Source: a virus. Taken from it: a stretch of 64,000 bases of DNA. The number at the start of each line of letters is the position of its first letter. Position 1 is the first letter of the stretch. Positions 1,403 to 29,993 of the stretch are shown one piece after another. Location: positions 33,433 through 97,432 of the IMG/VR virus record IMGVR_UViG_3300017605_000706; one strand, given 5' to 3'. Below the pieces are notes generated by a model that worked only from the letters and a program-made list of their open reading frames with translations, searched no databases and had not been told where the DNA came from. The position numbers and the translations under genes are program-made.

Positions 1403-1672
1403 GTGGCTAAGCGCAGAACCAAGCCTTCCAAGAATCGCTATTTTTGCTACGCCGTTGCGAACGGAAAGCTCAAGTGGGTCGCCAACACGACCACGGGCTT
1501 CTCCTTTCACAAGGCCCGCGCGAAGCTACTGCGTCCTAGCGAGGCCGCTGATCTGGCCTCCAACCGCGGAGTACGCTGCAAGATCGCAAAGTACAACGCG
1601 CACAAAGGCCAGCTGGGGTACGTCTACACCGGACGTACGCATCAGTGGAAGGCTAAGCGGCGGGGGCGCTGA
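1403..1672 (+). CDS. Basic protein with C-terminal YVY/WKA tag
   Basis: I chose the GTG at 1403, which gives an N-terminus (M-AKRRTK) like its neighbours and has a GGAAGGGCGG purine tract upstream. A TTG two codons earlier is the alternative. The 89-aa product is very basic. Its C-terminal twenty residues (LGYVYTG..., WKAKRRGR) match the ends of the proteins at 3938, 4178 and 5209, although the remainder of each protein differs. The tag may mark proteins for packaging, membrane or DNA association, or processing; that is inference. Confidence 0.85.
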   Translation: MAKRRTKPSKNRYFCYAVANGKLKWVANTTTGFSFHKARAKLLRPSEAADLASNRGVRCKIAKYNAHKGQLGYVYTGRTHQWKAKRRGR

Positions 1673-1675
1673 CCA

Positions 1676-1963
1676 ATGGCCAAGATTAACGTCTGCGGCG
1701 TGAAAGTTCCGGCAAGCGGGATGAACACGTATGGCGGTGGCCACATTGCGCCCACCGCGCGCAACCTGGGCCAATACGCCAAAGTTAGTAAAGCGACGGC
1801 GAAGAAGCTCGCTGCTAGCGCAGGCCGCGATCGGCCACCGCGACCTGGCTACGAGATGACGTTGTGTAACGGCGTCTATCTTAGCAACAGCGCCGGACGC
1901 TTCGAAGTCGTTAGCCGCGGACCCGGCGAAAACTTATTCGGCGTTCGTAGAAGGAGACGTTAG
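1676..1963 (+). CDS. Basic protein with poly-Arg C-terminus
   Basis: This 95-aa protein begins MAKINVCGVKV and ends in five arginines. It lies 3 bp after the previous gene and 2 bp before the next, so it is part of the same transcript. No known domain is visible. The Arg tail is shared with several neighbours (1966, 2933, 4418, 4861) and would suit binding to DNA or to a phosphate-rich membrane face in the virion. Confidence 0.85.
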   Translation: MAKINVCGVKVPASGMNTYGGGHIAPTARNLGQYAKVSKATAKKLAASAGRDRPPRPGYEMTLCNGVYLSNSAGRFEVVSRGPGENLFGVRRRRR

Positions 1964-1965
1964 TC

Positions 1966-2193
1966 ATGGCCAAGCGGCACAAATCCCCAGAATTCAGAAC
2001 CGGCGACTGCGTCAAGTCGCCGCCTGAGCATCACGACGCTGGTAAAATCGTCGGTCGGGAACGCGATCTGTACCATGTCATGTTCTTCGGCGCCATGCGC
2101 CCCAAACGCTTCAAAGCCTACGAGCTTGTGGCCGCGGCGTGTCCTACGTGGCTTGCCGGCACTAAGCCTCGTCGCAGACGCCGTAGGCGTTGA
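1966..2193 (+). CDS. Small basic protein, possible SH3/KOW-like fold, poly-Arg tail
   Basis: The 75-aa protein carries a stretch (FRTGDCVKSP... GKIVGRERDLYHVMFFG...) resembling the short beta-strand pattern of KOW or SH3-like barrels. It ends in seven arginines. It is closely spaced after the previous gene. A nucleic-acid-binding role is an inference from charge and pattern only. Confidence 0.8.
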   Translation: MAKRHKSPEFRTGDCVKSPPEHHDAGKIVGRERDLYHVMFFGAMRPKRFKAYELVAAACPTWLAGTKPRRRRRRR

Positions 2194-2222
2194 TCTCTTC
2201 CTGCTTAGCCTAGCTAATCCTT

Positions 2223-2615
2223 ATGAATCCCAGACTCAACTATCTTGCGTGTATCACGGTTTCTGTCGCGCTCCTGTTGAACGCGTCCTGTTCGAACCCC
2301 GAGCAGACTCGTCGCAAGACGGTCGCTGGCGCGTTCAAAGGCGTCAACGCAGCTCGAGACGGTTTCGTTGCATGGGATCTAGCGCGGCAGGACCAGATCA
2401 TCGCAGCCGCAACGTCGATCAGCGACGGCGAGGCCAAGCTCAAGAGCTATCGCGAGCACCGTCATATGGTCGAGCTTGCCTTCGAAGTTGCCTATCGTGG
2501 GCTCGCGCTCGCCGCGCTTGAACCGACGATCGCCAATCTCGACAAGGCGCTTACTGGCGTCAACCAGCTCTACAATCTGATCCAGGGCTTGACCGGAAAG
2601 AAGTTGGGACCGTGA
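2223..2615 (+). CDS. Putative lipoprotein
   Basis: The 130-aa product has a typical secretion signal (MNPRLNYLACITVSVALLL) ending in NASC, a plausible though imperfect lipobox with Cys at about 23. The mature part is helical and Ala/Leu-rich. A small lipoprotein inside a virion/lysis cluster could be an outer-membrane spanin subunit, but the low proline content argues against a classic Rz1. Its TGA overlaps the next GTG (GTGA). Confidence 0.8.
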   Translation: MNPRLNYLACITVSVALLLNASCSNPEQTRRKTVAGAFKGVNAARDGFVAWDLARQDQIIAAATSISDGEAKLKSYREHRHMVELAFEVAYRGLALAALEPTIANLDKALTGVNQLYNLIQGLTGKKLGP

Positions 2616-2872
2616 GTACAACCGACGAACTTCTCGATCTCGCCACGGAAGGCTTGTCCGTCATTGCGCAACTGACGTCCAACGTCGTTGACGACAATGC
2701 CGTGCTTGTCATCAAAGCCGTTCGCGCCGTGATCGAAGCATTCGAGAGCCACAAAGCAGGCGCCGTCTCGTATACCGACGTACTCGATGAGTATGCCAAG
2801 CTAGCGAAATCGCTAGAAGCGAACGACACTGCTGCTGACGCAAAGCTCAAAGACAAGTTCCCTTCTACGTAA
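2612..2872 (+). CDS. Small helical acidic protein, function unknown
   Basis: The GTG start overlaps the stop of the lipoprotein gene. The 86-aa product is predominantly helical and acidic (Glu/Asp with Ala/Val heptad-like spacing), in contrast to the very basic neighbours. No signal peptide or membrane segment is visible. Coupling to the lipoprotein suggests a joint role. Confidence 0.8.
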   Translation: MSTTDELLDLATEGLSVIAQLTSNVVDDNAVLVIKAVRAVIEAFESHKAGAVSYTDVLDEYAKLAKSLEANDTAADAKLKDKFPST

Positions 2873-2898
2873 GAGCTTGACTTTCCTATCAGCTTCAG

Positions 2899-2918
2899 TA
2901 GATCATATCTTTGATCTA
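2899..2918. promoter_or_regulatory. Inverted repeat in the leader of the 2933 gene
   Basis: TAGATCA, six bases, TGATCTA form perfect 7-bp arms immediately before the AGGAGATCC ribosome-binding region of the next gene. It could be an mRNA hairpin protecting or regulating that start, or an operator. A TTGACT lies at 2877-2882 but no well-spaced -10 follows it. Confidence 0.45.
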
Positions 2919-2932
2919 GGAGATCCTACCCA

Positions 2933-3343
2933 ATGGCTTCCAAGGCACAGCCTCTCTACAAGCGCTGCAAGAAGGGCGTCCACAAGTCGGGCGCTAAGAA
3001 GGGCCGTCTCATGCAGGGCTATATTTGGCCCGGTGGCGGCAAGTGCCCTGTGAAGGGTGTTGTTGGTGGCAAGAAGGCAAAGGCTTCGCCCAAGAAGCGT
3101 AGCCGTAAGCCGAGCCGTCACAGCGTCGCGTACCGCTCTCAGGCTGCTGCTGCCGGACGCTACGGCGCAGGCGCCGAAGCGTTCATTCGTCGCATGAAGA
3201 TGACGAAGTCCAGCGGTGCACGCCCGCCCGCTAGTTACTCGCAGCAGGCTTCTGCACTTCAACGTATCTACGGCCGTTCGGGTTCGATGTCCGGCGCTAG
3301 GCGGTCGCGGCCTGTGCGCGGTCGTCGTCGGCGTCGCCGCTAA
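2933..3343 (+). CDS. Very basic DNA-binding-like protein with poly-Arg tail
   Basis: The 136-aa protein is extremely rich in Lys, Arg, Gly and Ser throughout and ends in RGRRRRRR. It starts after a good AGGAGA site and an inverted repeat, and codon choice is biased (for example AAG for Lys throughout), which suggests high expression. The composition fits a genome-condensing core protein of a virion. That role is inference; no known domain is visible. Confidence 0.85.
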   Translation: MASKAQPLYKRCKKGVHKSGAKKGRLMQGYIWPGGGKCPVKGVVGGKKAKASPKKRSRKPSRHSVAYRSQAAAAGRYGAGAEAFIRRMKMTKSSGARPPASYSQQASALQRIYGRSGSMSGARRSRPVRGRRRRRR

Positions 3344-3395
3344 ACGTAGACGGCGCTAAACCAAAACCAACCCAGAAAGAGATAGGTAAACTACC

Positions 3396-3842
3396 ATGGC
3401 TATCACGTTCTCGCTCGTCTACGCCTCGCCTCGCCACCTTCGCTACCTGGCTACCAACTCGGGTTCGCCCCTGGGTGGTACTCAGAACATCCCGAACGAC
3501 GGCGGCGCGACCCCTGACCTTCTGACCGACATCAACACGCAGGCGTCGGGTTCGCTCCAGAAGATCATCACGGCCCGCACCAACGGTATCGGTACCGTCG
3601 TTGCTGGCGCGCTGACTCAGGCGCAGGCCCGCGCGATCATGAACGCCGACGGTACGGTTAGCGTCGGTAACGCGCTCGTTCCCCGTGCCGTTACGACGGT
3701 CTCGCCGCGCTCTGGTACCGCTACCTGGGTGATCGACATCAACGTCGACGGCCAGGGCGACCCCGTTGTTGCCGTGACCTCGTCGGCTGCTGCCGGCGAC
3801 GCGTACGTCGACATCCAGGCGCTGCACTCGATCCGCGACTGA
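3396..3842 (+). CDS. Candidate abundant virion protein (possible capsid or spike protein)
   Basis: The 148-aa protein is neutral to acidic and rich in Gly, Ala, Thr and Val with alternating polar and hydrophobic stretches typical of a beta protein (for example TATWVIDINVDGQGDPVVAV). It lacks a signal or membrane segment. It has its own ribosome site (AGAGATAGG), strongly biased codons and a strong terminator just downstream, all pointing to high expression. Among the genes seen here it is the best candidate for a major structural protein. I cannot assign a capsid fold from sequence alone. Confidence 0.8.
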   Translation: MAITFSLVYASPRHLRYLATNSGSPLGGTQNIPNDGGATPDLLTDINTQASGSLQKIITARTNGIGTVVAGALTQAQARAIMNADGTVSVGNALVPRAVTTVSPRSGTATWVIDINVDGQGDPVVAVTSSAAAGDAYVDIQALHSIRD

Positions 3843-3924
3843 TCGGTCTGGCGACCGATTGGCCGATACCATCGGCCCCGGCCCGTGCTGTACGAAGCCA
3901 GCCGGACGGGGCCTCTCTTTTTTT
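3842..3924 (+). terminator. Hairpin chain with rho-independent terminator
   Basis: Three hairpins follow the stop codon: ATCGGT/ACCGAT (3842-3859), GGCCGAT/ATCGGCC with a 3-nt loop (3861-3877), and GGCCCCG (3874-3880) with CGGGGCC (3907-3913), then seven T (3918-3924). The second and third share bases and are mutually exclusive. The last is a canonical intrinsic terminator and separates the 3396 gene from the genes after it. Confidence 0.8.
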
Positions 3925-3937
3925 CAGGGGGTGAGTC

Positions 3938-4174
3938 GTGGCAAAGCCGAGACGCAGCCGATCAGCTGCCCAAAAACGACGAATTAAAGAAACGGCTGTG
4001 TGCAAGGGTCTGTGGCGTAAGATGCACGGCGCCCAAGCCCCTAAATCCGGCAAGCGCATGATGAAGTTCATGGCTGAGTGCTTCCAGCATATGGGCACAC
4101 GCCGAGGCGGTCTCGGCTACGTCTACCAGGGAACGCATCACACCTGGAAAGCCAAGCGCCGCGGAGGACGTTGA
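3938..4174 (+). CDS. Basic protein with C-terminal YVY/WKA tag
   Basis: GTG start soon after the terminator. The 78-aa product is basic and mostly helical, and ends with the shared tag (LGYVYQGTHHTWKAKRRGG then R). The body (residues 1-55) has no clear similarity to the other tagged proteins, so the tag looks like a reusable module. It opens a second co-oriented run of basic and membrane proteins (3938-6262). Confidence 0.85.
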   Translation: MAKPRRSRSAAQKRRIKETAVCKGLWRKMHGAQAPKSGKRMMKFMAECFQHMGTRRGGLGYVYQGTHHTWKAKRRGGR

Positions 4175-4177
4175 ACA

Positions 4178-4417
4178 ATGTCTAAGGCAATTAGCATTAC
4201 AGCGCGCGCGGCTATCTCAAACGCGCGCGCAGGTCATTGCAAGGCGGCGAAGCTTCTAAGAGGCGATTTGAGGCGCCTCCCAAAGAAGACGGCCTCCGAC
4301 AAGAAGACCGCTAAAATGGCGCGCGTGATCGTCGATCACTTGTGCGGCGGACTCGGCTACGTCTATCAAGGCACAGCTCAGCGTAGTTGGAAGGCTTCTC
4401 GTAGGAAGGGTCGCTGA
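4178..4417 (+). CDS. Basic protein with C-terminal YVY/WKA tag
   Basis: The 79-aa protein begins MSKAISITARAAISNARAG, is basic and helical, and ends LGYVYQGT...SWKASRRKGR. The last twenty-one residues are nearly identical to those of the 5209-5475 protein, while the first 55 residues are only loosely similar. The next GTG start directly abuts its stop codon. Confidence 0.85.
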   Translation: MSKAISITARAAISNARAGHCKAAKLLRGDLRRLPKKTASDKKTAKMARVIVDHLCGGLGYVYQGTAQRSWKASRRKGR

Positions 4418-4864
4418 GTGGCCAAGGCGCCTGCAAATCGCCGCGTCAAGCATCAACACGACGCCATGACTGCCGCCAAGCGCGGCCAGTGTCGCGTTGC
4501 GGCCGTGCACATGCAGAGCGCCAAGCCTACTCGAGGCAGCTCGCCCGTCGAGCGCAGCCACTTCAAGCGCGCGGCGGCGATCGTCCATGAGAACTGTCAG
4601 TGGTCGGCGGCCAGGCTCGCCGGGCCATCGGCGGACTCGAGCAAGTATATCGTCACGTGGGGCGCGGGTTCGCAGCGTGAAGAGTTTATCACCGATGCGC
4701 TCAAGCTCGCCAAGCGCAAGAGCGGTAGTCCGTTCGGCGCGTCGATCTATCGCCGTGACAAGCCAGGGCGCGGAACACTGATCGCGACCTGCGCGAACGC
4801 TGTCTGTAAGCCGGTCAGCGGCCAGACACTGTCTGGCGCCAAGTCCAAAAAGAGGCGGAGATGA
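4418..4864 (+). CDS. Basic virion-cluster protein with KKRRR tail
   Basis: GTG start immediately after the previous stop. The 148-aa protein has a basic helical N-terminus (1-65, with HxxA and C residues), a middle stretch with beta character (KYIVTWGAGSQREEFITDAL) and a KSKKRRR end. It overlaps the next gene by 4 bp (ATGA). No family recognised. Confidence 0.82.
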   Translation: MAKAPANRRVKHQHDAMTAAKRGQCRVAAVHMQSAKPTRGSSPVERSHFKRAAAIVHENCQWSAARLAGPSADSSKYIVTWGAGSQREEFITDALKLAKRKSGSPFGASIYRRDKPGRGTLIATCANAVCKPVSGQTLSGAKSKKRRR

Positions 4865-5205
4865 GCACATCGACGTCAAAGATTGTCGGTTTTGGCAGCG
4901 CCGGTGTCGCTGCGGCGGCTCTTGTCGTGTCGTTTCTGCACAAGCCTAAGGCTACCAAGATCATCGCAAGCCTAAGCGGTGTCCTCGGCGCGACAACTCT
5001 TGGCCTAGCCGGCCGGCAGATGACCGTAACCCACACGCTCATGCCTGCGCCAGGAGGCCAAGCGGACCAGTCAAACTCTACAGCGCTTCGCGCAGTCGCC
5101 TTTGGCGGCGGCGCGCTCCTGACGAGCGCGGTTGCGCTGTTGATCGGATCAAGCTCGTGCAAGGCGCCCAAGGCGCTGGGGCGCGCTCGAGGAAGAAGGA
5201 GATAG
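4861..5205 (+). CDS. Multi-pass small membrane protein with basic tail
   Basis: The 114-aa protein has hydrophobic segments at about 6-26, 34-52 and 78-98, followed by a basic tail (KALGRARGRRR). It contains short Ser/Thr-rich ends. Membrane topology together with the Arg tail shared by soluble neighbours suggests that the tail faces DNA or another acidic partner. Function unknown. Confidence 0.82.
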   Translation: MSTSTSKIVGFGSAGVAAAALVVSFLHKPKATKIIASLSGVLGATTLGLAGRQMTVTHTLMPAPGGQADQSNSTALRAVAFGGGALLTSAVALLIGSSSCKAPKALGRARGRRR

Positions 5206-5208
5206 CCG

Positions 5209-5475
5209 ATGCCTCGTGGAAAATGCAGCCGTGCCGCGTTCGCGGCAAAGATCCGCGACGTCAAGCGCCTCCGTTCGAAGGTCCCGGCGGATCTACGCCC
5301 GCTGTTCAACCACCTGCTCAAGCTGTCTATAAACAGCGTCGAGCATGGTTACTGCCAACGCGCGGGACAAGAAATCGCCTACGCGCGCAAGCTCTACCAG
5401 AAGCATGGCCTCGGGTACGTCTACCAGGGAACGCCGCAGCGTAGCTGGAAGGCTTCCCGCAGGAAAGGTCGTTGA
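5209..5475 (+). CDS. Basic protein with C-terminal YVY/WKA tag
   Basis: The 88-aa protein starts MPRGKCSRAAFAAKIRDVK and ends LGYVYQGTPQRSWKASRRKG then R. It is the fourth carrier of the tag. A central helix contains KARKLYQKHGLGYVY-like junction sequence, so the tag follows a helical body as in the 4178 product. Separated from the previous gene by 3 bp. Confidence 0.85.
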   Translation: MPRGKCSRAAFAAKIRDVKRLRSKVPADLRPLFNHLLKLSINSVEHGYCQRAGQEIAYARKLYQKHGLGYVYQGTPQRSWKASRRKGR

Positions 5476-6746: not shown

Positions 6747-7805
6747 TCATTGACGCAGAATCTCGGCAATTCGTGAACCGGCTCCACCGTCGCCGAACCG
6801 CCCACGCGACTTCCGGCGGCACCTGATCGCGACAGGGACCATTCGTAGTAGTTCATCGATCTGATCGCCTATCAGCCGGCAAGCGCTGTCCAGCGCTTCG
6901 GGGCGCTCAGTCTCACGCCGCAGGATCAGGCACGGCTTCTCGGCGTCCGCCGCTTCTTCGATGAGGCCCCCTGAGTCCGTAATGACCAAGCTCGACCAGT
7001 CTACAAGCTGCGCCATCGCCGTGTGCTCGAGAGGGCCAGGCAAAACAACATGGGGCGGCAAGACAGCCTCTTGCATCATGGCTTTGAGCTTGGGGTTGGC
7101 GTGCGCGGGCCAAACGGCCAAGTAGTCCTTCGGCAAGCTGGCGATCAAAGACACGAGCTTGGGCATGATGCTGTCCCACGCCTCGCGTCGGTGGCACGTA
7201 ATCAAGATGATCGGCTTGCCCGCAGCCCGCTCGACGATGTCCGAGACGATCGACGGCGTCGTGTGCTCAAGAGCCGATCGGAACGCGTCGATACCCGTGT
7301 TGCCGGTGACGTGAATCTCACCCTCAACCTGTTCCCGACGAAGGTTCCGCGCTGCCGCCTGCGTGGGCGCGAAGTGCAGTGTGGCGATCTTCGAGATCGC
7401 GCGGCGGTTCATCTCTTCAGGAAACGGGCTAAACACCGTCGGCGAGCGCAAGCCGGCTTCGATGTGCGCCACGCGTGTCCCGCTCAAGAACGCGGCCTGA
7501 GCGCCTGCGAATGCCGTGGCGGTATCGCCTTGCACCACGGCGTACGCATACTCCCCCCAGCCTACCCTACCCGATCCCAACTCCTTGATAGCATTACCGA
7601 CGAACTCCGTCAAGCTTCCTGTTGTACGATCGACTTCGATCCACTGATCAGGGATCAGGCCCTGCTCGCGGAGATGGCTAGTCAACAGCTCGCGGTGTTG
7701 CGTAACAGCGATCAGATGACATGACTTGCCGAGCGCACGAACGGTACTGGCGACCTTCATGCATTCCGGTCTAGTGCCTATGATGACAGCCCCCCGGCGC
7801 GTCAC
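6747..7805 (-). CDS. wecB: UDP-N-acetylglucosamine 2-epimerase (non-hydrolysing)
   Basis: The 352-aa protein has the features of the WecB/MnaA family: N-terminal GTRPE, HIEAGLRS, PEEMNRR, GNTGID, and TDSGG.IEEA in the second Rossmann half. Length is close to the usual 360-380 aa. The enzyme interconverts UDP-GlcNAc and UDP-ManNAc in the cytoplasm. With the UDP-sugar dehydrogenase at 11241 it could supply UDP-ManNAcA. CHRREAW replaces the commoner HRREN. GTG start with an extended -10 six bases upstream. Confidence 0.9.
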   Translation of the reverse strand: MTRRGAVIIGTRPECMKVASTVRALGKSCHLIAVTQHRELLTSHLREQGLIPDQWIEVDRTTGSLTEFVGNAIKELGSGRVGWGEYAYAVVQGDTATAFAGAQAAFLSGTRVAHIEAGLRSPTVFSPFPEEMNRRAISKIATLHFAPTQAAARNLRREQVEGEIHVTGNTGIDAFRSALEHTTPSIVSDIVERAAGKPIILITCHRREAWDSIMPKLVSLIASLPKDYLAVWPAHANPKLKAMMQEAVLPPHVVLPGPLEHTAMAQLVDWSSLVITDSGGLIEEAADAEKPCLILRRETERPEALDSACRLIGDQIDELLRMVPVAIRCRRKSRGRFGDGGAGSRIAEILRQ

Positions 7806-7811
7806 ACCTTG

Positions 7812-7820
7812 ATGCTAACA
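7812..7820 (-). promoter_or_regulatory. Extended -10 box for the epimerase gene
   Basis: Minus-strand reading TG-T-TAGCAT, six bases, GTG start. Compact spacing suggests a leaderless mRNA, as for the neighbouring metalloprotease gene. Confidence 0.45.
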
Positions 7821-7866
7821 CAGTTGACGGGCAGGTTCGACCTATAGCAGGCTAGGCGGAGTTCTG

Positions 7867-9447
7867 ATGACAAGACCTTTGGTTTGCGGGTTCCTGAAAG
7901 CGCGTAACGAAATTCTGAGGGGTAACCTCCACCGTTGCATAGAGAACCTGTCTAAGTACGTAGACACGATCGTTGCGTGCGACGACGGCAGCACCGACGG
8001 TACACGTGAGTACCTTCAAAGCGTCATTCCAAAAGATCAGCTGCTCTTGATCGATCCCGGTGATCAGGACTTTCGTAAAGAGCTGGCTGTCAAGAATCAG
8101 ATGCTTGATATGGTCAGACGGATCAACCCGGTGTTCGTCTTCTGGGCAGACACCGACGAGACCGTCGACGAAAGCCAAATCCACCTGATCCGGCCTTTCC
8201 TGCTTGCGCAGAAAGACAAGCACGAGGTTCACGCCTGGCGCTCTCACTACCTACAGCTGTGGCGCAACAAAGAGTACTGCCGCACCGACGACGGATTTGG
8301 GGACGGGCGCTTCGTCAAAGTATGGCGGTGGCAGCCGGGACTTAGCTTCAGAATCATTGATGGCACTCACCACCAGCAGTTTCCCCAGCAGATCGACCTC
8401 ACGAAAGTCGAAGACACGCCTTGGAAAGTCATCCACTGGGGCAACTACGGGGTGAGCCTTCGCTGGAAAGCTATTCAGTACTACGGCGGTCTCGGTGGCG
8501 TTGAGCGTCACATGAACTTCGAGGATGCGACTTACGAGTCGACGGACAAGCTTCTCGGCAAGCCGGTATCAGCGCCGCTGGCGCCCAAGCCGGTCCCGTA
8601 CACGCCTCGTGAGAAGCGCGTCATTCTTGACATGAAGAACCTGAAGAATCTGCCTTCATGGTTCACAGTGGTTATTCCTACGTTCAATCGTGCTGCGTTT
8701 CTGCCTGAGACGCTCAACTCGCTCCTACGTCAGACGTACCAGAATTGGGTAGCTGTCGTCCTCGATGACGGCTCGACGGACAACACGTACGATTTGATGC
8801 AGAAAGCGATGGAACGCGACCCGCGTATCTTCTACTGTCGCTACGACAAGCTCGGCGCAGTCGCCATGAATGAGCGCGGCGGTGACATGGCAAGTGAGTT
8901 CACTGAGTACTGGACGCGCCTTGGCAGTGATGACACGTTCGAGCCTCACAAACTGCGCATGGACGCGGCTGCGATGAGCCTCGGGCACGATCTTGTCTAT
9001 GGGTCGTACCGTGTACACAGAGACGGCGCGCTCGCGGAGATCTGCAACCTGCCCGAGGACAAGACAGCGCTTCGGGACCGCTTTGCCGCTGGCGGTTTCG
9101 CGGTCTCGTGGGCTAATATTGCGTGCACGTCAAAGCTGCTACGTAAAGTCAAGAAGCACTACGGTTCGTATTGCGACGCGCGCCTACGTAACATGGAAGA
9201 CTTCCTGGTCAACTACAGGCTCACGCGCTTTGCGAAGCCGGTCTGGCGTGGCATCTACAAAGACACCGTCATCATCGACCCTGGCGTGCCCATGATCGAA
9301 CAGATGAGCGCGGATCGTGACAACATCAAGCATGACGCCATGTGGCGCGTGAACCCGGTTGGCGCGTCATCGGACACTCAGACAACTGCAAACGAAGACG
9401 TTCTCACTCGAGAGCTGATCGCCGAGGACATCAAGAAATGGATCTGA
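7867..9447 (+). CDS. Two-domain family 2 glycosyltransferase
   Basis: The 526-aa protein contains two GT-A domains. The first (about 1-230) has CDDGSTDGT and a WADTDE acceptor-like motif. The second (from about 262) starts WFTVVIPTFNRAAFLPETL and has LDDGSTDNT and GSDD. Two GT2 modules in one chain are typical of enzymes building alternating or short oligosaccharides. Starts with a GGCGGAG site and overlaps the methyltransferase gene by 10 bp. It heads the plus-strand glycan block. Confidence 0.9.
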   Translation: MTRPLVCGFLKARNEILRGNLHRCIENLSKYVDTIVACDDGSTDGTREYLQSVIPKDQLLLIDPGDQDFRKELAVKNQMLDMVRRINPVFVFWADTDETVDESQIHLIRPFLLAQKDKHEVHAWRSHYLQLWRNKEYCRTDDGFGDGRFVKVWRWQPGLSFRIIDGTHHQQFPQQIDLTKVEDTPWKVIHWGNYGVSLRWKAIQYYGGLGGVERHMNFEDATYESTDKLLGKPVSAPLAPKPVPYTPREKRVILDMKNLKNLPSWFTVVIPTFNRAAFLPETLNSLLRQTYQNWVAVVLDDGSTDNTYDLMQKAMERDPRIFYCRYDKLGAVAMNERGGDMASEFTEYWTRLGSDDTFEPHKLRMDAAAMSLGHDLVYGSYRVHRDGALAEICNLPEDKTALRDRFAAGGFAVSWANIACTSKLLRKVKKHYGSYCDARLRNMEDFLVNYRLTRFAKPVWRGIYKDTVIIDPGVPMIEQMSADRDNIKHDAMWRVNPVGASSDTQTTANEDVLTRELIAEDIKKWI

Positions 9448-10094
9448 TCAAGGCCCGGGAATTCTGGACGTGCGCGGCCGGCTTCCCTGTAGATAAAGAA
9501 GCAATTTATCCCCAGCACAGGATCGCTCAGCAGTTCGACGATATCGTTGCTAAGAGCGTCCTCGAATACGGCTGTGGCGGAGGCTCTGATACGCTGAGCT
9601 TCCTGCGCCGCGGCAACCGCGTGTACTACGCGGACATCGTACCGGGCAACGTTCAGACAACGTCGTCGCGTGTGGCCGATGCAGGCTTCGCGTCGATGGC
9701 TCGGCCGATTACGCTTGCTGCGTCGGACGCGATCCCGCTCAAGGATGCGTCGATCGACGTTGTCTCGAGCCATGGCGTAATTCACCACATTGAAGAGCCG
9801 TTCGCAGTCCTGCTCGAGTTCCATCGGATCCTGAAGCCTGGCGGTTTGATCTACGTCATGTTGTACAGTGAAAAGCTGCGCGCGGATCTTGATCCTGAGG
9901 TCAAGAAGCGGACTGACAGAGGCGCGTCCGAAGGTCGCGCGTTCGGCGAAGCTACCGACGGTGACGGCTGTCCGTACGCAAGGCCGTACACTGAATCAGA
10001 GGGCCGCGATCTGCTCACGAACGCAGGCTTCACCGTCACGAGTACGTATGAATATCTCGACGGCAAGTTCAGGACTTTCAGGGGAGTCAAGTGA
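9438..10094 (+). CDS. Class I SAM-dependent methyltransferase
   Basis: The 218-aa protein shows the SAM-binding glycine motif (VLEYGCGGGSDTL), the acidic end of strand 2 (YYADIVPGN) and motif IV-VI of Methyltransf_11 (DAIPLKDASIDVVSSHGVIHH, ILKPGGLIYVMLY). ATG 9438 lies inside the end of the glycosyltransferase gene, so the two are coupled. It probably methylates a sugar or a small-molecule intermediate; the substrate is not evident. Confidence 0.88.
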   Translation: MDLIKAREFWTCAAGFPVDKEAIYPQHRIAQQFDDIVAKSVLEYGCGGGSDTLSFLRRGNRVYYADIVPGNVQTTSSRVADAGFASMARPITLAASDAIPLKDASIDVVSSHGVIHHIEEPFAVLLEFHRILKPGGLIYVMLYSEKLRADLDPEVKKRTDRGASEGRAFGEATDGDGCPYARPYTESEGRDLLTNAGFTVTSTYEYLDGKFRTFRGVK

Positions 10095-10276
10095 TCTTTG
10101 CGAAGTCGGATAAACTGGAAACGTGCACGTGCTTTTGCCACATTCCAGAAGGCAAGCAGTGGCGGCTACACTGCTTCGGCCCGTGCTGTGATCAGCCTGA
10201 TCAAAGCGCGCCCGATCCTATGATTGCAGGGCAAATCAAGGCTGAACATGACCGCGTTCTAATGGGAGTCAAGTAA
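10091..10276 (+). CDS. Small Cys-rich protein
   Basis: GTG start overlapping the methyltransferase stop. The 61-aa product has CTCFCHI and CFGPCC motifs that could bind zinc or another metal. It is squeezed between glycan genes and shares their operon. Function unknown. Confidence 0.75.
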   Translation: MIFAKSDKLETCTCFCHIPEGKQWRLHCFGPCCDQPDQSAPDPMIAGQIKAEHDRVLMGVK

Positions 10277-10504
10277 ATGGCGAGTCGTAAAAAAGTCACG
10301 ATCGACGTTTTGTCTAACGGTTTCGTCGTAGACTACATAGGTTCTTCTAGTATCGCGCATCCACGCGTCATCAAGACGTTCGAGGAACTCGCCACTGAGT
10401 TGTGGTCGCTTCTAGGCGAAGCACACAACGTCGGCGATAGGGCCGACTTGATCGTCACGCGAAGCGGCGTAACGACGTCTGCTGACAAGATCAGGAAGCA
10501 CTGA
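10277..10504 (+). CDS. Small unknown protein
   Basis: The 75-aa product starts directly after the previous stop and begins MASRKKVTIDVLSNGFVVDY. It has a beta-beta-alpha pattern (TIDVLSNGFVVDYIG followed by a Leu-rich helix). Such short proteins often act as virion or regulatory accessories in phages. No family recognised. Confidence 0.75.
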   Translation: MASRKKVTIDVLSNGFVVDYIGSSSIAHPRVIKTFEELATELWSLLGEAHNVGDRADLIVTRSGVTTSADKIRKH

Positions 10505-10509
10505 CAGCG

Positions 10510-10704
10510 ATGATCTTCGAGCGAAGAACAGACGATGTCGACTTGAGAAAGCAGCCATGCTGCTGCTGTGTCTGCAAAGAAGTGTCGTTGTGCACGCCGT
10601 CCAACGACTTCTATACGACGCCGATCACGGGCGATTTTCTCGTCTGTGAGCGGTGCTTTTGGGCCAATCGGCATCAAGACGTGGAGATGACCAAGTGCCG
10701 CTAA
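10510..10704 (+). CDS. Small zinc-ribbon-like protein
   Basis: The 64-aa protein has CCCCVCKE and, about forty residues later, VCERCFW, giving two CxxC-type pairs as in zinc ribbons. It overlaps the following methyltransferase gene by 10 bp. The role is unknown; its place suggests a partner of the glycan enzymes. Confidence 0.75.
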   Translation: MIFERRTDDVDLRKQPCCCCVCKEVSLCTPSNDFYTTPITGDFLVCERCFWANRHQDVEMTKCR

Positions 10705-11240
10705 CGTCACCGCACTTCAGCGACAAGATCGAAGATTGGTTGCGCATCGTCCAGGCTGGCGGCGAGGCGCTGTTCACGGACAAAGACGTGCTGGATCTCG
10801 GGCCGTCCTACGGTATCGACACGTACATGTTCGCGCCCAAGTGCCGTAGCTACACCGTCGTCGAGACGGCGCCTGACGTCCTCGAGCATCTCGCCAAGCT
10901 TCAATCCGTCGTCAACTTCAACGTCGTCGTGCACAACCTCCAACGCACGCTGCCGTTCTCCGACGCCAGCTTCGACCTCGTCATGGACCTGGGTACGCTC
11001 GACAACGTCTTGGGCGGTGTCCTGCCATACCAAGAGTGCATGCGCGTCCTGCGCCCTGGAGGCCTGTTCCTCTGCGCGTTCGCGAACCAGGAAGTCTTGG
11101 GAACGCGCTTTTCGGAGTGTGGCGACGAAGAGCGCCGTACGTACCACGAGCTTGTTGCGCTACTGACCGACGCGGGCGCCAAAGACGTCGTCGGTGCGCG
11201 AGTCATGCAGGCTCGTGCGGGCCTGATTGCGAGGAAGTAG
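10695..11240 (+). CDS. Class I SAM-dependent methyltransferase
   Basis: GTG 10695 is preferred because GGAG lies 8 nt upstream. The 181-aa protein has VLDLGPSYGIDT (SAM loop), VVETAP, LPFSDASFDLVMDLGTLD and VLRPGGLFLCAF, matching Methyltransf_11. It resembles but is shorter than the 9438 enzyme. Its stop directly precedes the dehydrogenase start. Likely modifies the same glycan or nucleotide sugar. Confidence 0.87.
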   Translation: MPLTSPHFSDKIEDWLRIVQAGGEALFTDKDVLDLGPSYGIDTYMFAPKCRSYTVVETAPDVLEHLAKLQSVVNFNVVVHNLQRTLPFSDASFDLVMDLGTLDNVLGGVLPYQECMRVLRPGGLFLCAFANQEVLGTRFSECGDEERRTYHELVALLTDAGAKDVVGARVMQARAGLIARK

Positions 11241-12542
11241 ATGACTAGCTACGATTTGGCCGTTCATTCCGGCGGATACGTCGGTCTCACGTGCGCGATC
11301 CATTTCGCAAAGGCAGGTAAGCGCGTCATCTGCTACGATCCCGATAGCCGTGTCGTTGACGGCATCAACTCAGGACAGCCGAAGGCCGGCGAATTCCTGG
11401 GTTACCTCGGCAATACGTACCCGCGCGAGAACCTGATTGCCACGAGCACCTTCGAAGAGACTCTAAGCTGCGACGTTCATATCCTGGCCGTCCCCAGTGA
11501 AAAAGATGACGAGCCTTGGATGTTGATTGTTGAGGGCTGCCTCAGCATGATCGCGCGTGAGCGCGCTGGTAAGAAGACGCTTGTCATCATCGAGAGCACG
11601 CTTCAGCCGGGCGCCGTTGACGGCTTTATCAGGGCCAACTCGAGCCTGATCTCGGACACGCTCGAGATCGCTGTCTGTCCAAGGCGCGACTGGTTCGCTG
11701 ATTCTAATAAGAATCTCAGTAGCTTACCTCGCGTCGTCGGCGGCTACACGCCAAGTGCGACTGATTGGGCATGCGAAGTCCTGTCGACCGTCACGCCGCC
11801 CGAGAAGCTCATGAAGACGAGCTATCGAACTGCCGAAGTCACTAAGGCGCTAGAGAACGCGCTCTTCCACGCGCCCATCGCGTTGTGCCACAGCCTTGCG
11901 CTAGCCTACCCCGAGCTGGATATCGCCGAAGCGGCGCGCCTCGCAGCGACGCACTGGCGCTTCGAGAGCTTCGGCGGTCTGCACCTGAACTTGGGCACCT
12001 CTGGAAGATGTGTGCCAATCGGCTCGAAATATTTGCGCGACGGCGCAGGTGATCAGATTGTCGATCTGCTCGATTCTGTCCTCGATACCGAAGACGAGAT
12101 GCCCGAGGCCGTCGCCCAGGCGATCACGCGGCGTATAGGGCCTGACGCGCGCGTATTGATCCTCGGTGTCGCGTATCGGCCTGGGTTCCGGGACGCCGGC
12201 ATGTCGGGCGGGCTACGCGTAGCCCGCGCGTTCATGAGCCCCGTCAAGATTGACTTCGCCGATCCCGTCTTCGCCAATTACGAGATCTGCGACTTAGCGC
12301 GCAAGTACGGCCTTCAGAACTTCGAAATCGTCGACGTGGGTGAACTGCACGAAGAGCGTTTGGCGACGTATGCCGCTGTCATCTTGGCCACACCGCACGC
12401 GCAGTTTGCGAACCTGCCTGAGCGCTTCACGCGACTAGGCCAAGTGCTGTTCGACGCGCGCGGCGCGTGGCTATCCCAGAGACAAACGTTCCAAGATCGT
12501 AGTATACTGTACTTGAACGTTGGCTCACCGGGATGGCGTTGA
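11241..12542 (+). CDS. UDP-glucose/UDP-ManNAc 6-dehydrogenase family enzyme
   Basis: The 433-aa protein has the three-domain layout of UDP-sugar dehydrogenases: an N-terminal NAD fold (GGYVGL at 11-16), a central helix with the catalytic region KALENAL (Lys202), the nucleophile loop GTSGRCVPI (Cys257), and the C-terminal domain (VLILGVAYRPGFRD). With the WecB-like epimerase nearby, UDP-ManNAc is the more likely substrate, giving UDP-ManNAcA, but UDP-Glc cannot be excluded. The first Gly of the usual GxGYVG is replaced by His-Ser-Gly-Gly. Confidence 0.88.
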   Translation: MTSYDLAVHSGGYVGLTCAIHFAKAGKRVICYDPDSRVVDGINSGQPKAGEFLGYLGNTYPRENLIATSTFEETLSCDVHILAVPSEKDDEPWMLIVEGCLSMIARERAGKKTLVIIESTLQPGAVDGFIRANSSLISDTLEIAVCPRRDWFADSNKNLSSLPRVVGGYTPSATDWACEVLSTVTPPEKLMKTSYRTAEVTKALENALFHAPIALCHSLALAYPELDIAEAARLAATHWRFESFGGLHLNLGTSGRCVPIGSKYLRDGAGDQIVDLLDSVLDTEDEMPEAVAQAITRRIGPDARVLILGVAYRPGFRDAGMSGGLRVARAFMSPVKIDFADPVFANYEICDLARKYGLQNFEIVDVGELHEERLATYAAVILATPHAQFANLPERFTRLGQVLFDARGAWLSQRQTFQDRSILYLNVGSPGWR

Positions 12543-12545
12543 GAT

Positions 12546-12926
12546 ATGGCTAACCGCCCAGGAATCACCGAAGCGAGCCAGCGCGCGCAGGAACGCGTAC
12601 GCGCGACAGTGACCACACCTCGGAGTAGCATGGCTAAAGATTACGTATTCGACGCAGCTCGTTTTGCAGGCGAGCGTTCTGACCCAGACACGCATACGTA
12701 CCTCGTCGAAATTCATCAAGCAGGCGAGACTGTGTTCACCAACCGTGTCGACGCCCTCAGCGTCGAAGGCGCGCTAAGCGCAACGCGCCAGCGCCTCGAC
12801 AGCTTGTCGCTCGAAGACCGCAAGAGACTCGTCGGCGACGCGCCGTACGAGATCCAAATCTCTCGCCGATTCAAAATCGTTCCCAAAGTCGTCCATATCG
12901 TCGTAGATACCGAGGAAGTGACCTGA
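12546..12926 (+). CDS. Unknown protein in glycan block
   Basis: The 126-aa product lies between two sugar-nucleotide enzymes. An internal ATG at 12630 (MAKDYVFDA) could be the true start. The C-terminal part alternates strand and helix (THTYLVEIHQAGETVF...; IVPKVVHIVVDTEEV). No family recognised. ATGA-type overlap with the next gene. Confidence 0.75.
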   Translation: MANRPGITEASQRAQERVRATVTTPRSSMAKDYVFDAARFAGERSDPDTHTYLVEIHQAGETVFTNRVDALSVEGALSATRQRLDSLSLEDRKRLVGDAPYEIQISRRFKIVPKVVHIVVDTEEVT

Positions 12927-13987
12927 TGTCGTCGAGCGGTTGTAGCACAAAGCGCCCCAGTTCTGCCGCGTTGGCCCCAACCAAGCTGCGCCTCGTAGTT
13001 ACAGGGGCAAAAGGCTTTGTGGGATCGATCCTGTCGCTACGCGCTGTCGAGCGCGGTCATAGCGTTCTCGCGCTCGATAACGAGTCGCGAGGCCTGAACC
13101 CGATCGGTGCCAAGATAGGCGACTCGTACCAGAAATTCGACTGCATGCAGGGTATCGCAGAGGCGGTCAAGACACGCGGCTGGGATCGCATCGACGCTGT
13201 CGTGCACCTGGCCGCTGCGACTGGCAGCCTTGAACGCCCTCTCGATGAGCTGCTCGAGTTCAACGTCGGCATGACCCAGCACGTCTACACTGACGCGCTC
13301 GCGCTCGGCGCCAAGACGTTCCTGTGGCCGACGACAAGCCTCGCGCTAGGCGTACCCGATAGCCCCTACGTAGAGTCCAAGGAGCAAGCACTCCGCTGGC
13401 TGCTCCAAGTAGACAAGCAGGCGCGCATCTCACAGCCCGTGCGCTTCTTCAACATGACTGGCGCATACAAAGGCCTGACCGAGCGCCGGCTCAATGAAGT
13501 GCACATCCTACCCGTGATGCTACAGAAGTATCAGGCACGCGAGCAGTTCGTCGTCAACGGTGGCGACTACGCGACTGTAGATGGTAGCCCCAGCCGAGAC
13601 TTCACGAACATCGTCGACGCCGTCGACACGCTGCTAGACATCGCTGAGAACCGCGCTCGAGGTAAAGTTGATCAGCCTCGCGCCAAGGACGAAGCCGTCT
13701 GGCTGGGTACCGGCCAGAGTACGACGGTCCTCGAGCTGATCAAGATGTTCGATCAGTGGGTAGGCGCGCTTGACTACAAGATCGGCCCACGGCGCGCGTT
13801 CGACTGCGGGTCTCTGATTGTCGAGCCTACGCAGGCCTCGCAGTTCAAGGCCATGCGAGGCGGCCTCGTACCCGTGCGCATCTCGGTGCGCGATGAGCTA
13901 ATGGCGCTCATGGAAGACCCCGCAGCGGTCGCAGCTGAAGAGCCTGTCACAGAGACGGTCTTAAATCGAGTTGTGGAGACAGACTGA
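12926..13987 (+). CDS. NAD-dependent epimerase/dehydratase (extended SDR)
   Basis: The 353-aa protein has the dinucleotide motif GAKGFVG (27-33), VVHLAAATG, and the catalytic YVESK (Tyr147, Lys151), as in GalE/RmlB-type SDRs. The first 20 residues are an extra Ser-rich leader. It is the last large enzyme of the glycan block and probably interconverts a nucleotide sugar. The specific reaction cannot be read from the sequence. Confidence 0.88.
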   Translation: MSSSGCSTKRPSSAALAPTKLRLVVTGAKGFVGSILSLRAVERGHSVLALDNESRGLNPIGAKIGDSYQKFDCMQGIAEAVKTRGWDRIDAVVHLAAATGSLERPLDELLEFNVGMTQHVYTDALALGAKTFLWPTTSLALGVPDSPYVESKEQALRWLLQVDKQARISQPVRFFNMTGAYKGLTERRLNEVHILPVMLQKYQAREQFVVNGGDYATVDGSPSRDFTNIVDAVDTLLDIAENRARGKVDQPRAKDEAVWLGTGQSTTVLELIKMFDQWVGALDYKIGPRRAFDCGSLIVEPTQASQFKAMRGGLVPVRISVRDELMALMEDPAAVAAEEPVTETVLNRVVETD

Positions 13988-14356: not shown

Positions 14357-15073
14357 CTAGTCCTGCGTCATCAGGTTGTAGTGCGCTAGCAGCTGCGCAG
14401 CCGTCAACTCGTAGTTGTACAGCGCGACTTTGCCAACGCCGCCCTCGAAGAAGCTAGCGAAGTTTCGCGTTCCGATGCGAAACGGAGCGTCGTTGGCGAC
14501 GGGTACGATCGCCAGATCACTTAGGGAGTCTTGGTCCCTGAAGACGCCGTTCTTGAAGATCTTCGTGTATCCCGTTGGATACGCGCCACTGACGCTGACT
14601 GTGTTGACGACGAACGCGGCATGAATCCACTGGCCTGCCGTGACGGGATCTTGAAAGAACGACCCAATGCCAAACCCGCCAGCGGGGTTGTAGCATTCAC
14701 CTAGAATACGGTTTTCGCGGCCTTCTGTGTTGTTCAGGCCGTACATGCGCATGACGTATTCGTGCTTGCCCGGCGTCCCCTTGCCGAGCCAGTTTACGTA
14801 CCCTGTACCGTCTTCGTCCAAAAAGGTCAGTACGTCTGGGCGCATCCACGCTTCAATCGTGAGCACGCCCGTTGTTGGGATAGACATCGTCGCGGTAGAT
14901 GGGTACTCGACGTAGCAAGTTTGGCCACCGGACGGAAACAGCCATGCGAGGTCCCCGTTAGGGACCGCTGTATACCCGACAGCCGGCGACGTCCAGCCAC
15001 CTGTCTCGGGGATCATGTAGTGCACGGGCCCGTCATTCAGGATGGCTAGGTCGTACAAGCTGCTAGGCGGCAT
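14357..15073 (-). CDS. LamG/concanavalin A-like lectin domain protein
   Basis: The 238-aa protein is almost one domain with the LamG-type pattern: TGVLTIEAWMRPD, a middle part with KHEYVMRMYG, APFRIGTRNFASFFEGGVG and the C-terminal KVALYNYELTAAQLLAHYN motif typical of laminin G-like 3 domains. It starts MPPSSLYDLAIL, as does its neighbour. Such domains bind carbohydrates in phage fibres. It lacks a signal peptide, so it is more likely a virion adsorption part than a secreted protein. Confidence 0.85.
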   Translation of the reverse strand: MPPSSLYDLAILNDGPVHYMIPETGGWTSPAVGYTAVPNGDLAWLFPSGGQTCYVEYPSTATMSIPTTGVLTIEAWMRPDVLTFLDEDGTGYVNWLGKGTPGKHEYVMRMYGLNNTEGRENRILGECYNPAGGFGIGSFFQDPVTAGQWIHAAFVVNTVSVSGAYPTGYTKIFKNGVFRDQDSLSDLAIVPVANDAPFRIGTRNFASFFEGGVGKVALYNYELTAAQLLAHYNLMTQD

Positions 15074-15074
15074 A

Positions 15075-15794
15075 TTAGCAGCCGCCTTGCGTCATCGTTG
15101 TGTAATGCGACGCCAGCTGCGACGTGGTCAATTCGTAGTTGTAGAGAGCGACTTTGCCGATCGCACCCTCGAAGAAGGACGCGAAGTCACGCGTGCCGAT
15201 TCTGAATGGCGCGTTGTTGGCTGTAGGCACGATGTTGAGCGCACTCAGCGAATCCGTGTCGCGCAGGACGCCGTTCTTGAAGATCCGCGTGTACCCCGTC
15301 GGGTACGCGACGCTCGTGTCGACCGTGTTGATCGTCAATGCGTAGTGAATCCATTCGAAAGGTGTCACGGCGTCTTGGAAATACGACCCGACGCCCAAGC
15401 CGCCGGCTGCATTGAAACAGTAGCCGGAGATCCGATTGTCTCGGCCCTCACTGTTGCCCTGTCCGTACATGCGACAGGTATACTCTTGCTTGCCGGAGAC
15501 ACCTTTGCCCATCCAGTGGACGTACCCGGTGCCCTCTTCGTGTGTGAAGACGTTGACGTCGGGGCGCATCCACGCCTCGATCGTCAAGATGCCCGTCGAT
15601 GGTACCGACATCGTCGGCATGGACGCGTACTCGACGTAGTACTTGTGGCCAACTGGGAACCACCACGCCGTGTCGCAGTTGGGCATCTCAGCGAAGCCGA
15701 CGGCAGGAGACATGCCGCCGCTGATTTCAGGCGTCATGTAGTGGACAGGATTGTCGCCTAGAATTGCGATGTCGTAGAGACTGCTTGGCGGCAT
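15075..15794 (-). CDS. LamG/concanavalin A-like lectin domain protein (paralogue)
   Basis: I chose the Met that gives MPPSSLYDIAIL, matching its paralogue downstream; an in-frame start 45 bp upstream is less likely. At 239 aa it aligns over its full length with the 14357 protein (TGILTIEAWMRPDV, APFRIGTRDFASFFEG, KVALYNYELTTSQL). Differences are concentrated in the loop region. It is the upstream member of a two-gene duplication. Confidence 0.85.
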   Translation of the reverse strand: MPPSSLYDIAILGDNPVHYMTPEISGGMSPAVGFAEMPNCDTAWWFPVGHKYYVEYASMPTMSVPSTGILTIEAWMRPDVNVFTHEEGTGYVHWMGKGVSGKQEYTCRMYGQGNSEGRDNRISGYCFNAAGGLGVGSYFQDAVTPFEWIHYALTINTVDTSVAYPTGYTRIFKNGVLRDTDSLSALNIVPTANNAPFRIGTRDFASFFEGAIGKVALYNYELTTSQLASHYTTMTQGGC

Positions 15795-15799
15795 GGCTT

Positions 15800-16027
15800 T
15801 TAGCACTTCTTTCTGAGCTGAACGCCCGGCTCGTACCAATCGCTGCAGAACGAGTCTGGCTCACACGGAATGAGTGGCGTACCCGCCCACTGCTGATAGT
15901 AGGCGTTTGTGCACGATCCGTAGCGACCGCCGACAGGCGCATAGAATCTACAGTTGGCGCAGCAAGAGCCGCCCTTGGGGACTTGTAGTCCAGGCTGGTG
16001 ATTGCGAGGGAGCGCGAACTTACCCAT
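15800..16027 (-). CDS. Small Cys-rich, HiPIP-like protein
   Basis: The 75-aa product has Cys at GGSCCANCRFY, GSCTN, IPCEPDSFCSDW and the C-terminus. This spacing resembles the small CxxC-Cys proteins often seen near phage tail genes and loosely the HiPIP family. It may bind a metal. It is the first gene of the minus-strand LamG operon. Confidence 0.75.
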   Translation of the reverse strand: MGKFALPRNHQPGLQVPKGGSCCANCRFYAPVGGRYGSCTNAYYQQWAGTPLIPCEPDSFCSDWYEPGVQLRKKC

Positions 16028-16056
16028 TAGCCTGTAGCCATGCTATCATACTAGCT
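16028..16056. promoter_or_regulatory. Divergent promoter with extended -10 boxes
   Basis: Plus strand: TG-C-TATCAT (16041-16049) seven bases before ATG 16057. Minus strand: TG-A-TAGCAT twelve bases before the start at 16027. The 29-bp gap thus seems to hold two overlapping, back-to-back promoters without separate -35 boxes. Confidence 0.5.
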
Positions 16057-16320
16057 ATGAGACGGCTATCCTTTCGAGGCTGTAAGCCGAACCGCCTTCC
16101 AGGCGGGAAGGCCGCTAGCCGGCGCCCTAGCGACTTCGATCCCGTTCAGCTTCACGCAGGCGCGCTCGTCGAGTTCGAGCACACGAAGGATCCGTGTGTC
16201 GCGCGTGAGATCGCGATGGATCATCTAACCGAGCGCTGGGACTACTACATCCGGCTGCGCAAGATGGAGCGCCTGCCTATCTTGAAGCGCCGCCACAAGG
16301 CGATCAAGCGCAAGCGCTAA
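16057..16320 (+). CDS. DUF5661-family protein
   Basis: The 87-aa product contains VEFEHTKDPCVAREIAMDHL and YYIRLRKME, the characteristic pattern of DUF5661 (EHT, IA.DHL, YY..L..ME). This family occurs in phages and large viruses; its function is unknown. ATG 16057 is only seven bases from an extended -10 box, so the mRNA may be leaderless. The C-terminus is basic (KRRHKAIKRKR). Confidence 0.82.
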   Translation: MRRLSFRGCKPNRLPGGKAASRRPSDFDPVQLHAGALVEFEHTKDPCVAREIAMDHLTERWDYYIRLRKMERLPILKRRHKAIKRKR

Positions 16321-16321
16321 G

Positions 16322-16618
16322 TCAGACTGCCCAACGGCACTTGTACTTGCGGCCCATCGCCATCGCTTTCATAGCGACGCGTCCGTGATGGAATTGTCGC
16401 GCCCTTGCCAAAGCCGTACGAATTCCTTCACAGTCGGGCCTACAGCCGTCGTTCTTGGCGACAACCGGAAACGCTAGCGTGCTGTTTAGGCGGCCAGGCT
16501 CGAGAAACGCCTTGGAGCCGCAGCGTGACAAGACGCGCCTGCGCTCCTGGCGGGTCTTAGGGGCCAGCCTTGCCCAGCCGCTGGTCGTCTTGGATCGTTG
16601 ATGCTTGGCCCTAGCCAT
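16322..16618 (-). CDS. Cys-containing basic protein, CG-x-K-C-FL-like viral family
   Basis: The 98-aa protein starts MARAKHQRSKTTSGWARLAP. It has CGSKAFLEP, FPVV...C...C and GIRTALARARQFHH. This arrangement recalls a small virion or chromatin-like protein known from several eukaryotic large DNA viruses (CG.KCFL.P, FPIC, RA.Q). The link is from memory and needs a search. Its promoter appears to overlap that of the divergent SGNH gene. Confidence 0.75.
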   Translation of the reverse strand: MARAKHQRSKTTSGWARLAPKTRQERRRVLSRCGSKAFLEPGRLNSTLAFPVVAKNDGCRPDCEGIRTALARARQFHHGRVAMKAMAMGRKYKCRWAV

Positions 16619-16639: not shown

Positions 16640-17299
16640 GTGCGCATCAAAGGTAGACGGATCCTGATCATAGGCGACTCGCTGTCCTACCCGGGTCAAA
16701 TCGTAACTGACCTTACGTCGCCGAGCACAAAGAACGCGAGCGCACCCGGCGCTGTCTTGGCTAGCATGCTGCTTGATCTCGGCGCCAGCGCCGTTCGCAT
16801 CAACGCTAAGGTCGGCCGCTCCGCCTACAACTTCTTCAAGAGTGAGCAGGGTGATGCGCTCCTGGCGCAGGACGCCGCAGGCCATCCCGATGTCGTACTC
16901 GTCTTCCTCGGGACCAACGACAAGAGTCTCAATACGACCGAGGACAAGAAGGCTTTCACGCGTATCGTCGACGCGTTCCCCAAAGCCGACGTCTGGGGTA
17001 TCGGGCCACCGCAGGCAGCCGGCTACGATCCCGTCTTCGCCACGATGCAGTCCGTCTTCGGACGCAAGCTCATCGACAGCCGGCCGTTTCTAGACGGCGC
17101 GTCGAAGGCCTCCGACGGCATTCACTTCCAACAGGCGGGCGCGCAGCTCCTGGCTGAGCGGTTGGCGATCGCGCTTGCAGCTACGCCATCACCGTGGCTA
17201 TCGTACGCTGTCCTGGGAGCCCTGGGGGCGACCGGGATAGGCTTGGCCTATGTTACACTAACACGGCTAAAGGCCAGGAAGCAACTGAAATCACAATGA
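16640..17299 (+). CDS. SGNH/GDSL hydrolase with C-terminal membrane anchor
   Basis: The 219-aa protein has all SGNH blocks: GDSLS (Ser14), GTND (91-94) and DGIHF (Asp159, His162). A single hydrophobic segment at about 187-207 is followed by a basic tail (LKARKQLKSQ). SGNH enzymes cleave esters, for example acetyl groups on glycans or peptidoglycan. The anchor and the coupled M23 gene suggest a role in crossing the cell envelope. GTG start, ATGA overlap with the next gene. Confidence 0.88.
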   Translation: MRIKGRRILIIGDSLSYPGQIVTDLTSPSTKNASAPGAVLASMLLDLGASAVRINAKVGRSAYNFFKSEQGDALLAQDAAGHPDVVLVFLGTNDKSLNTTEDKKAFTRIVDAFPKADVWGIGPPQAAGYDPVFATMQSVFGRKLIDSRPFLDGASKASDGIHFQQAGAQLLAERLAIALAATPSPWLSYAVLGALGATGIGLAYVTLTRLKARKQLKSQ

Positions 17300-29783: not shown

Positions 29784-29993
29784 ATGCCCCGCGCAGAGCT
29801 TACCCCAGCGCAGCAGGCACTGTATGATTCTATCCAGAGTAGCGGTGAATCAATCATCCCCAATCGCGGGCAGACTCGAGAGTCGTCACGCGCGCGGTCC
29901 GCGTGGATTCGGACGGCGAAGAGCCTTCGCAAGAAGAATCTGATCGCGCTGCAGCAAGTTGGTGTTGATACCTGGAAAGCCTCTAGGCTATGA
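29784..29993 (+). CDS. Small winged-helix-like DNA-binding protein
   Basis: The 69-aa product reads TPAQQALYDSIQSSGES, then ARSAWIRTAKSLRKKNLIAL and a short beta end. The helix-turn-helix followed by a Leu-Ile-Ala-Leu strand fits a small winged-helix regulator. Its end, TWKASRL, resembles the WKA tag but lacks the YVY part. Confidence 0.6.
   Translation: MPRAELTPAQQALYDSIQSSGESIIPNRGQTRESSRARSAWIRTAKSLRKKNLIALQQVGVDTWKASRL

Follow-up and report, generated by a model that had tools for sequence, protein, structure and literature searches.

A conserved C-terminal peptide on four small basic viral proteins and its possible role as a docking tag

The internal proteins IPI, IPII and IPIII of phage T4 carry a conserved capsid-targeting sequence (CTS) on otherwise diverse small bodies, and this sequence delivers them into the head, where they are embedded in DNA (PMC3012670, PMC7697877). 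The T4 CTS is N-terminal, spans about 10 amino acids (aa) and is removed by the head protease (PMC7697877). Encapsulin cargo-loading peptides are short, conserved and C-terminal, and are found on unlike cargo proteins encoded beside the shell gene (PMC7355545). The subject of the present analysis is a C-terminal tail shared by four small, very basic proteins (tag proteins A–D) of an uncultured phage represented by the 97,432-bp IMG/VR record IMGVR_UViG_3300017605_000706. Their genes lie in bases 33,433–97,432 of this record, a stretch of 64,000 nucleotides that constitutes the window analysed here and to which all coordinates refer unless stated, the other 33 kb being L004 and L005. A preliminary description of these genes knew of no described equivalent of the tail, which is too strong given the targeting sequence shared by the T4 internal proteins.

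The tail has the consensus LGYVY-x-G-(x)5-6-WKA-x-RR-(x)-GR, with 13 invariant positions, and forms the exact C-terminus of four plus-strand open reading frames (ORFs), starting at 1403 (A), 3938 (B), 4178 (C) and 5209 (D), all within one gene run. The copies are 19–21 residues long and are located at 1613..1669 (+) in A (LGYVYTGRTHQWKAKRRGR), 4112..4171 (+) in B (LGYVYQGTHHTWKAKRRGGR), 4352..4414 (+) in C (LGYVYQGTAQRSWKASRRKGR) and 5410..5472 (+) in D (LGYVYQGTPQRSWKASRRKGR). In a leave-one-out test, a profile built from three tails was searched for the fourth; each copy was recovered (E = 1e-5 for A, 9e-12 for B, 4e-15 for C and 6e-15 for D), with the best outsider at E = 0.09–0.43, and chance is excluded. 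These results confirm the four ORFs and their common C-terminal module. A search with the tag alone, using the four-copy profile, matched only A–D among the 1,109 ORFs of at least 30 aa in the whole record, the next best match having E = 0.34. The earlier wording that the four end with almost the same 20 residues applies strictly to B, C and D, and more loosely to A, whose tail is the most divergent copy. Each tail is net positive and Asp and Glu are absent from all four, whilst the L, Y, V, Y and W residues are as invariant as the Arg and Lys residues.

When the tail copies are compared pairwise, pS (at synonymous sites) is 0.54–0.90, which is near saturation, against a pN (at replacement sites) of 0.06–0.36. 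Of the 21 codons in the tails of C and D, for instance, 10 differ silently and one by a replacement. Over the 30 nt that open the tail, the copies share 57–83% DNA identity, compared with 20–37% over the 30 nt immediately upstream. This combination of high pS, low pN and DNA similarity that ends at the tail borders indicates, on sequence evidence, that the tail is an old peptide held by selection; recent duplication, a repeat element and a DNA or RNA signal are each rejected.

The proteins that carry the tail are A (1403..1672, +; 89 aa, isoelectric point (pI) 11.3, net charge +21) and B (3938..4174, +; 78 aa, pI 11.9, net charge +20), which have GTG starts, and C (4178..4417, +; 79 aa, pI 11.5, net charge +17) and D (5209..5475, +; 88 aa, pI 11.0, net charge +17), which have ATG starts. 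Each contains two Cys, and Lys and Arg together account for 24–28% of residues. None has a significant profile match in Pfam, PHROGs, NCBIfam or PDB sequences. A hydrophobic stretch is predicted in none of the four, and the proposal that the tail might be a membrane signal is consequently not favoured. Sorting signals of the LPXTG and PEP-CTERM types require a membrane segment ahead of the basic end; no such segment precedes the basic end of the tag proteins, and these candidates were dropped.

The bodies of the four proteins, taken as the 58–70 residues preceding the tail, were compared by local scores against 1,000 shuffles. Pairwise local scores do not exceed those of shuffled sequence (p 0.11–0.82), phmmer searches with each body recovered no other tag protein, and no body pair is significant among all the basic proteins of the gene run; in six global comparisons the lowest p value is 0.03, uncorrected, for the pair B–C. 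The portrayal of unlike small basic proteins, with charges of +17 to +21, that carry a conserved module at the C-terminus therefore stands, and homology of the bodies over their full length, named at the time as the case that would overturn it, is not borne out by their sequences; remote homology of the B, C and D bodies, as helical bodies, is possible. An AlphaFold model of D built on the alignment of all four proteins, of low confidence and indicative only (mean predicted local distance difference test (pLDDT) 63.6), contains three helices (block pLDDT about 67–77) and an unstructured tail (42–49). A fold search with this model returned no viral or PDB structure at E below 1.

Neither the tail nor the virus has detectable close relatives in the collections searched (IMG/VR, phage records and, in part, plasmids and GTDB). 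Scans with the tail alignment through IMG/VR (pattern and protein) and GTDB genomes found no relative, two DNA patterns for the tail matched only chance frames in IMG/VR, and tblastn against phage and plasmid records found no relative of the tag or late proteins. A Sphingobium plasmid match to D (32% over 97%, E = 0.1) was rejected as chance because the strand that it occupies is antisense to a 652-aa ORF. In IMG/VR, no kin were confirmed for four further proteins of the virus, namely the product of the gene at 3396, a transglycosylase-like protein, a 302-aa membrane protein and a MoxR-type ATPase. Pattern-based scans reach close relatives only and, therefore, distant kin may exist.

The gene run to which A–D belong is tightly packed and of late type, and mixes very basic proteins (genes at 1676, 1966, 2933 and 4418) with membrane proteins (470, 1140, 4861 and 5771); its upstream part encodes membrane-type, peptidoglycan-binding-like and thioredoxin-like proteins. 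At least five Lys or Arg residues fall within the last 12 residues in 11 of 17 genes of the run, compared with 9 of 154 elsewhere (Fisher p = 2e-8), the genes for this count having been chosen simply by length. Two small basic proteins (1676..1963 and 1966..2193, both +) end in poly-Arg and lack the tag, as does a basic protein of 148 aa and charge +22 located between the tag genes (4418..4864, +; C-terminus KSKKRRR). A 136-aa protein with a net charge of +38 and the C-terminus RGRRRRRR (2933..3343, +) is probably DNA-binding. The product of 4861..5205 (+) is predicted to have two membrane segments, and its C-terminus, GRARGRRR, is basic. A slightly acidic protein of 148 aa, encoded amid the basic genes (3396..3842, +), is a candidate major virion protein; it has no relatives in any collection searched, and its structure model has a pLDDT of 31. 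Across 1676–5475 of the window, the Arg-rich ends of several genes double as the Shine-Dalgarno (SD) sequence of the next gene, for example AGAAGGAGA before 1966 and AAGGAG before 5209.

Starts in the late region carry upstream SD-like sequence, with a mean anti-SD duplex of -6.4 kcal/mol against -3.0 kcal/mol for random 22-mers, and the host of the virus is therefore likely to be a bacterium. The 97-kb record encodes DNA polymerase A together with Sak4-like annealing, primase-like and tail-spike-like proteins, and no capsid gene was recognised in it. A C-terminal membrane segment is apparent in several proteins, some of which score below the hydropathy cut-off applied (window 16640–17299, 17293–17847, 33–470, 470–1147 and 47311–47970; L005:14892–15779 and 15787–16338), and these include a GDSL hydrolase, an M23 peptidase and peptidoglycan-binding-like paralogues. 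Such segments hint at either a membrane-bearing particle or lysis or entry enzymes anchored in the membrane.

Of the roles first suggested for the tail, packaging and DNA binding are both favoured by the extreme basicity of the proteins and by the gene context. The reading preferred here, tentatively and as one that falls somewhat short of probable, is that the tail serves as a C-terminal docking tag for DNA-binding core proteins in the virion. Four different small DNA-binding proteins of core type would share one C-terminal peptide, the LGYVYxG...WKA part of which would bind a single shared partner in the assembling particle, perhaps a shell or membrane protein from the same gene run, whilst RR(x)GR at the very end would contribute to DNA contact. 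Different basic bodies would thereby be collected at one site, around the genome, during assembly. A common binding partner is suggested by the constraint on aromatic and hydrophobic as well as basic residues, the invariant L, Y, V, Y and W being more than a purely electrostatic tail would need. In support of docking, there are four copies and no others, pS and pN contrast, the bodies share no detectable similarity, the proteins have charges of +17 to +21 in only 78–89 aa, and the neighbourhood is rich in very basic proteins and in membrane proteins with basic C-termini. The unstructured tail beside a helical body in the low-confidence model of D is as might be expected for a peptide that becomes ordered upon binding its partner.

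A number of points weigh against docking. The invariant RR and GR residues and the overall basicity equally fit direct binding of nucleic acid by the tail. The sequences show the tail, its conservation as a peptide, the unlike bodies, the strong basicity and the gene context, whereas presence in the virion, DNA binding, the putative partner and the docking role are inferred from them. No relative of the tail was found, and its conservation is seen among the four paralogues of one record. Furthermore, Terminase_6N, Phage_portal, FtsK_SpoIIIE and Zot are unmatched in the whole 97-kb record, other terminase and portal families not having been searched record-wide; the record may be a fragment or otherwise incomplete; alternatively, the particle may be of an unknown type. 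A bolder proposal, which we consider doubtful, is that of a lineage of phages in which packaging genes of the terminase, portal, FtsK and Zot kinds are not recognisable and whose membrane-bearing particle would be loaded via the C-terminal tag, with diverse protamine-like bodies swappable behind a fixed 20-residue docking peptide through which condensation of the genome would be coupled to the shell or membrane.

The nearest rival to docking is that the tail itself binds or condenses DNA, a possible if rather unlikely reading in which its aromatics would stack or line a hairpin, RR(x)GR would contact the backbone or minor groove, and the four would be protamine- or histone-like proteins with no protein partner. 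Every copy being net positive and free of acidic residues accords with such a role, and the frequent poly-Arg ends of untagged neighbours imply that Arg-rich ends are general to the gene run. However, if plain Arg runs suffice for these neighbours, the invariant L, G, Y, V, Y and W over 20 residues need an extra reason, and no known DNA-binding family is matched (Pfam, PHROGs, NCBIfam and PDB sequences). Less probable again, and unlikely on balance, is an origin of the four genes as one old, tandemly duplicated family, whose bodies would have diverged past recognition and whose C-terminus would be the best-kept part; any function of the tail is compatible with this scenario. The genes are close together and alike in size, charge and their two Cys, B–C scores best in the global comparison of bodies (the uncorrected p = 0.03 above), and an ungapped 45-residue alignment of the body of C with the 4418 protein has a similar pattern that is not significant (p = 0.15). 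Nevertheless, none of the body comparisons stays significant once corrected, the body of A gives, as judged by eye from its sequence, no sign of the helical pattern of the others, and similarity drops abruptly at the LGYVY border, in DNA as well as in protein.

The remaining explanations are far weaker. Processing motifs of the adenain or nucleocytoplasmic large DNA virus type are [MIL]xGx-G or [MIL]xGG-x, or GG-x. It is very improbable that the tail is the cleavage site of a maturation protease or is cut off in the particle, and the earlier suggestion to this effect is not favoured: the tails hold no acidic residue and no [LIAS]xE site, the adenain motif is absent, and GG-x occurs in only two of four. 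An M23 cell-wall peptidase is the sole protease candidate recognised in the genes scanned, the whole record not having been scanned for proteases, and the tail is conserved to its last residue, further than a cleavage site requires. On the other side, T4 does have targeting peptides that can be cleaved (PMC7697877) and GG precedes the tail in two of the four proteins. The lowest probability of all is assigned to the Arg/Gly/Lys-rich end being a by-product of the SD sequence of the next gene read in frame. Purine runs ending B, C and the 1676, 4418 and 4861 genes do lie at SD distance from the next start, and the strong mean anti-SD duplex of the late region fits, but LGYVYxG and WKA are left unexplained, the same Arg residues differ in codons (CGC CGC versus CGT AGG), and CGN codons, away from a start, make up most of the poly-Arg that ends the 1966 and 2933 genes. 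As a whole explanation it is refuted, whilst the SD sequence may influence which codons are used for the final five residues.

A second family with a shared C-terminus is also present in the record, with about 30 dispersed paralogues of roughly 100–180 aa, far more numerous than the tail family. These carry a P-W-E-I-H-x-I-x-D...A..A..AY motif and most end about 25 residues past its start; their bodies are weakly similar, often with an upstream W/Y-x-x-RG, and have no Pfam match. Examples are found at 29959–33493, 35717–36348, 38373–43878 and 62474–63910 of the window, and in L004 and L005. A PWEIH DNA pattern revealed no kin of this family or of the virus in IMG/VR, and a Leptolyngbya match to the pattern was dismissed as chance because stop codons surround it. 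Further paralogues comprise two tail-spike-like proteins (57372–59618 and 59611–61740, -) with C-terminal regions alike by eye, two adjacent and strongly similar proteins (14357–15073 and 15075–15839, -; 365 bits) with, by eye, a LamG-type sugar-binding look, and two proteins that appear kinase-like by eye (47976–48782, +, and 51395–52381, -; glycine-rich loop, DVHLENL), the latter of which ends in KRRRGR. The region 6747–13987 resembles, again by eye, a sugar-nucleotide/glycosyltransferase cluster, with UDP-GlcNAc epimerase-like, UDP-glucose dehydrogenase-like and NAD-dependent epimerase-like products.

In common with the T4 CTS, the tail is short, terminal and common to otherwise unlike small proteins. 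It differs in being C-terminal and 19–21 residues long, rather than N-terminal and about 10. The prohead-protease cleavage motif is xxE, such as LxE, and is necessarily missing from a tail without Asp or Glu; no sequence relation to the CTS is apparent, and T4-type head genes were not recognised. Like encapsulin cargo-loading peptides, the tail is a C-terminal peptide conserved across differing proteins, but it is Arg-rich with Trp and Tyr, and the tag proteins are very basic and small and are not enzymes. As for an encapsulin or HK97-fold shell gene, the scanned neighbours gave no significant shell-protein match (Pfam, PHROGs), the model of the 3396 protein reaching the aforementioned pLDDT of only 31. 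The adenovirus core proteins VII, V and X/mu, and other viral DNA-condensing proteins, offer a third likeness, namely several small, very basic and presumably DNA-binding proteins per virus; however, no sequence similarity to them was found, the tail has no adenain motif, and we know of no adenovirus-type core protein set with a shared identical C-terminal peptide.

Because position, length, motif and neighbouring genes either differ or lack support, the tail belongs to neither the CTS nor the encapsulin peptides. Even as a mere DNA-binding end, it would point to the probable core proteins in a virus where genes for capsid and packaging are otherwise unrecognisable. Were it a docking tag, it would provide a handle for finding its partner in the virion, as well as a portable peptide with which to load proteins into a new particle. 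If docking holds, the tail would act, by analogy, as a terminal recruitment tag in the manner of the T4 CTS and the encapsulin cargo peptides, and would represent a C-terminal counterpart of the T4 sequence in a virus without recognised relatives.

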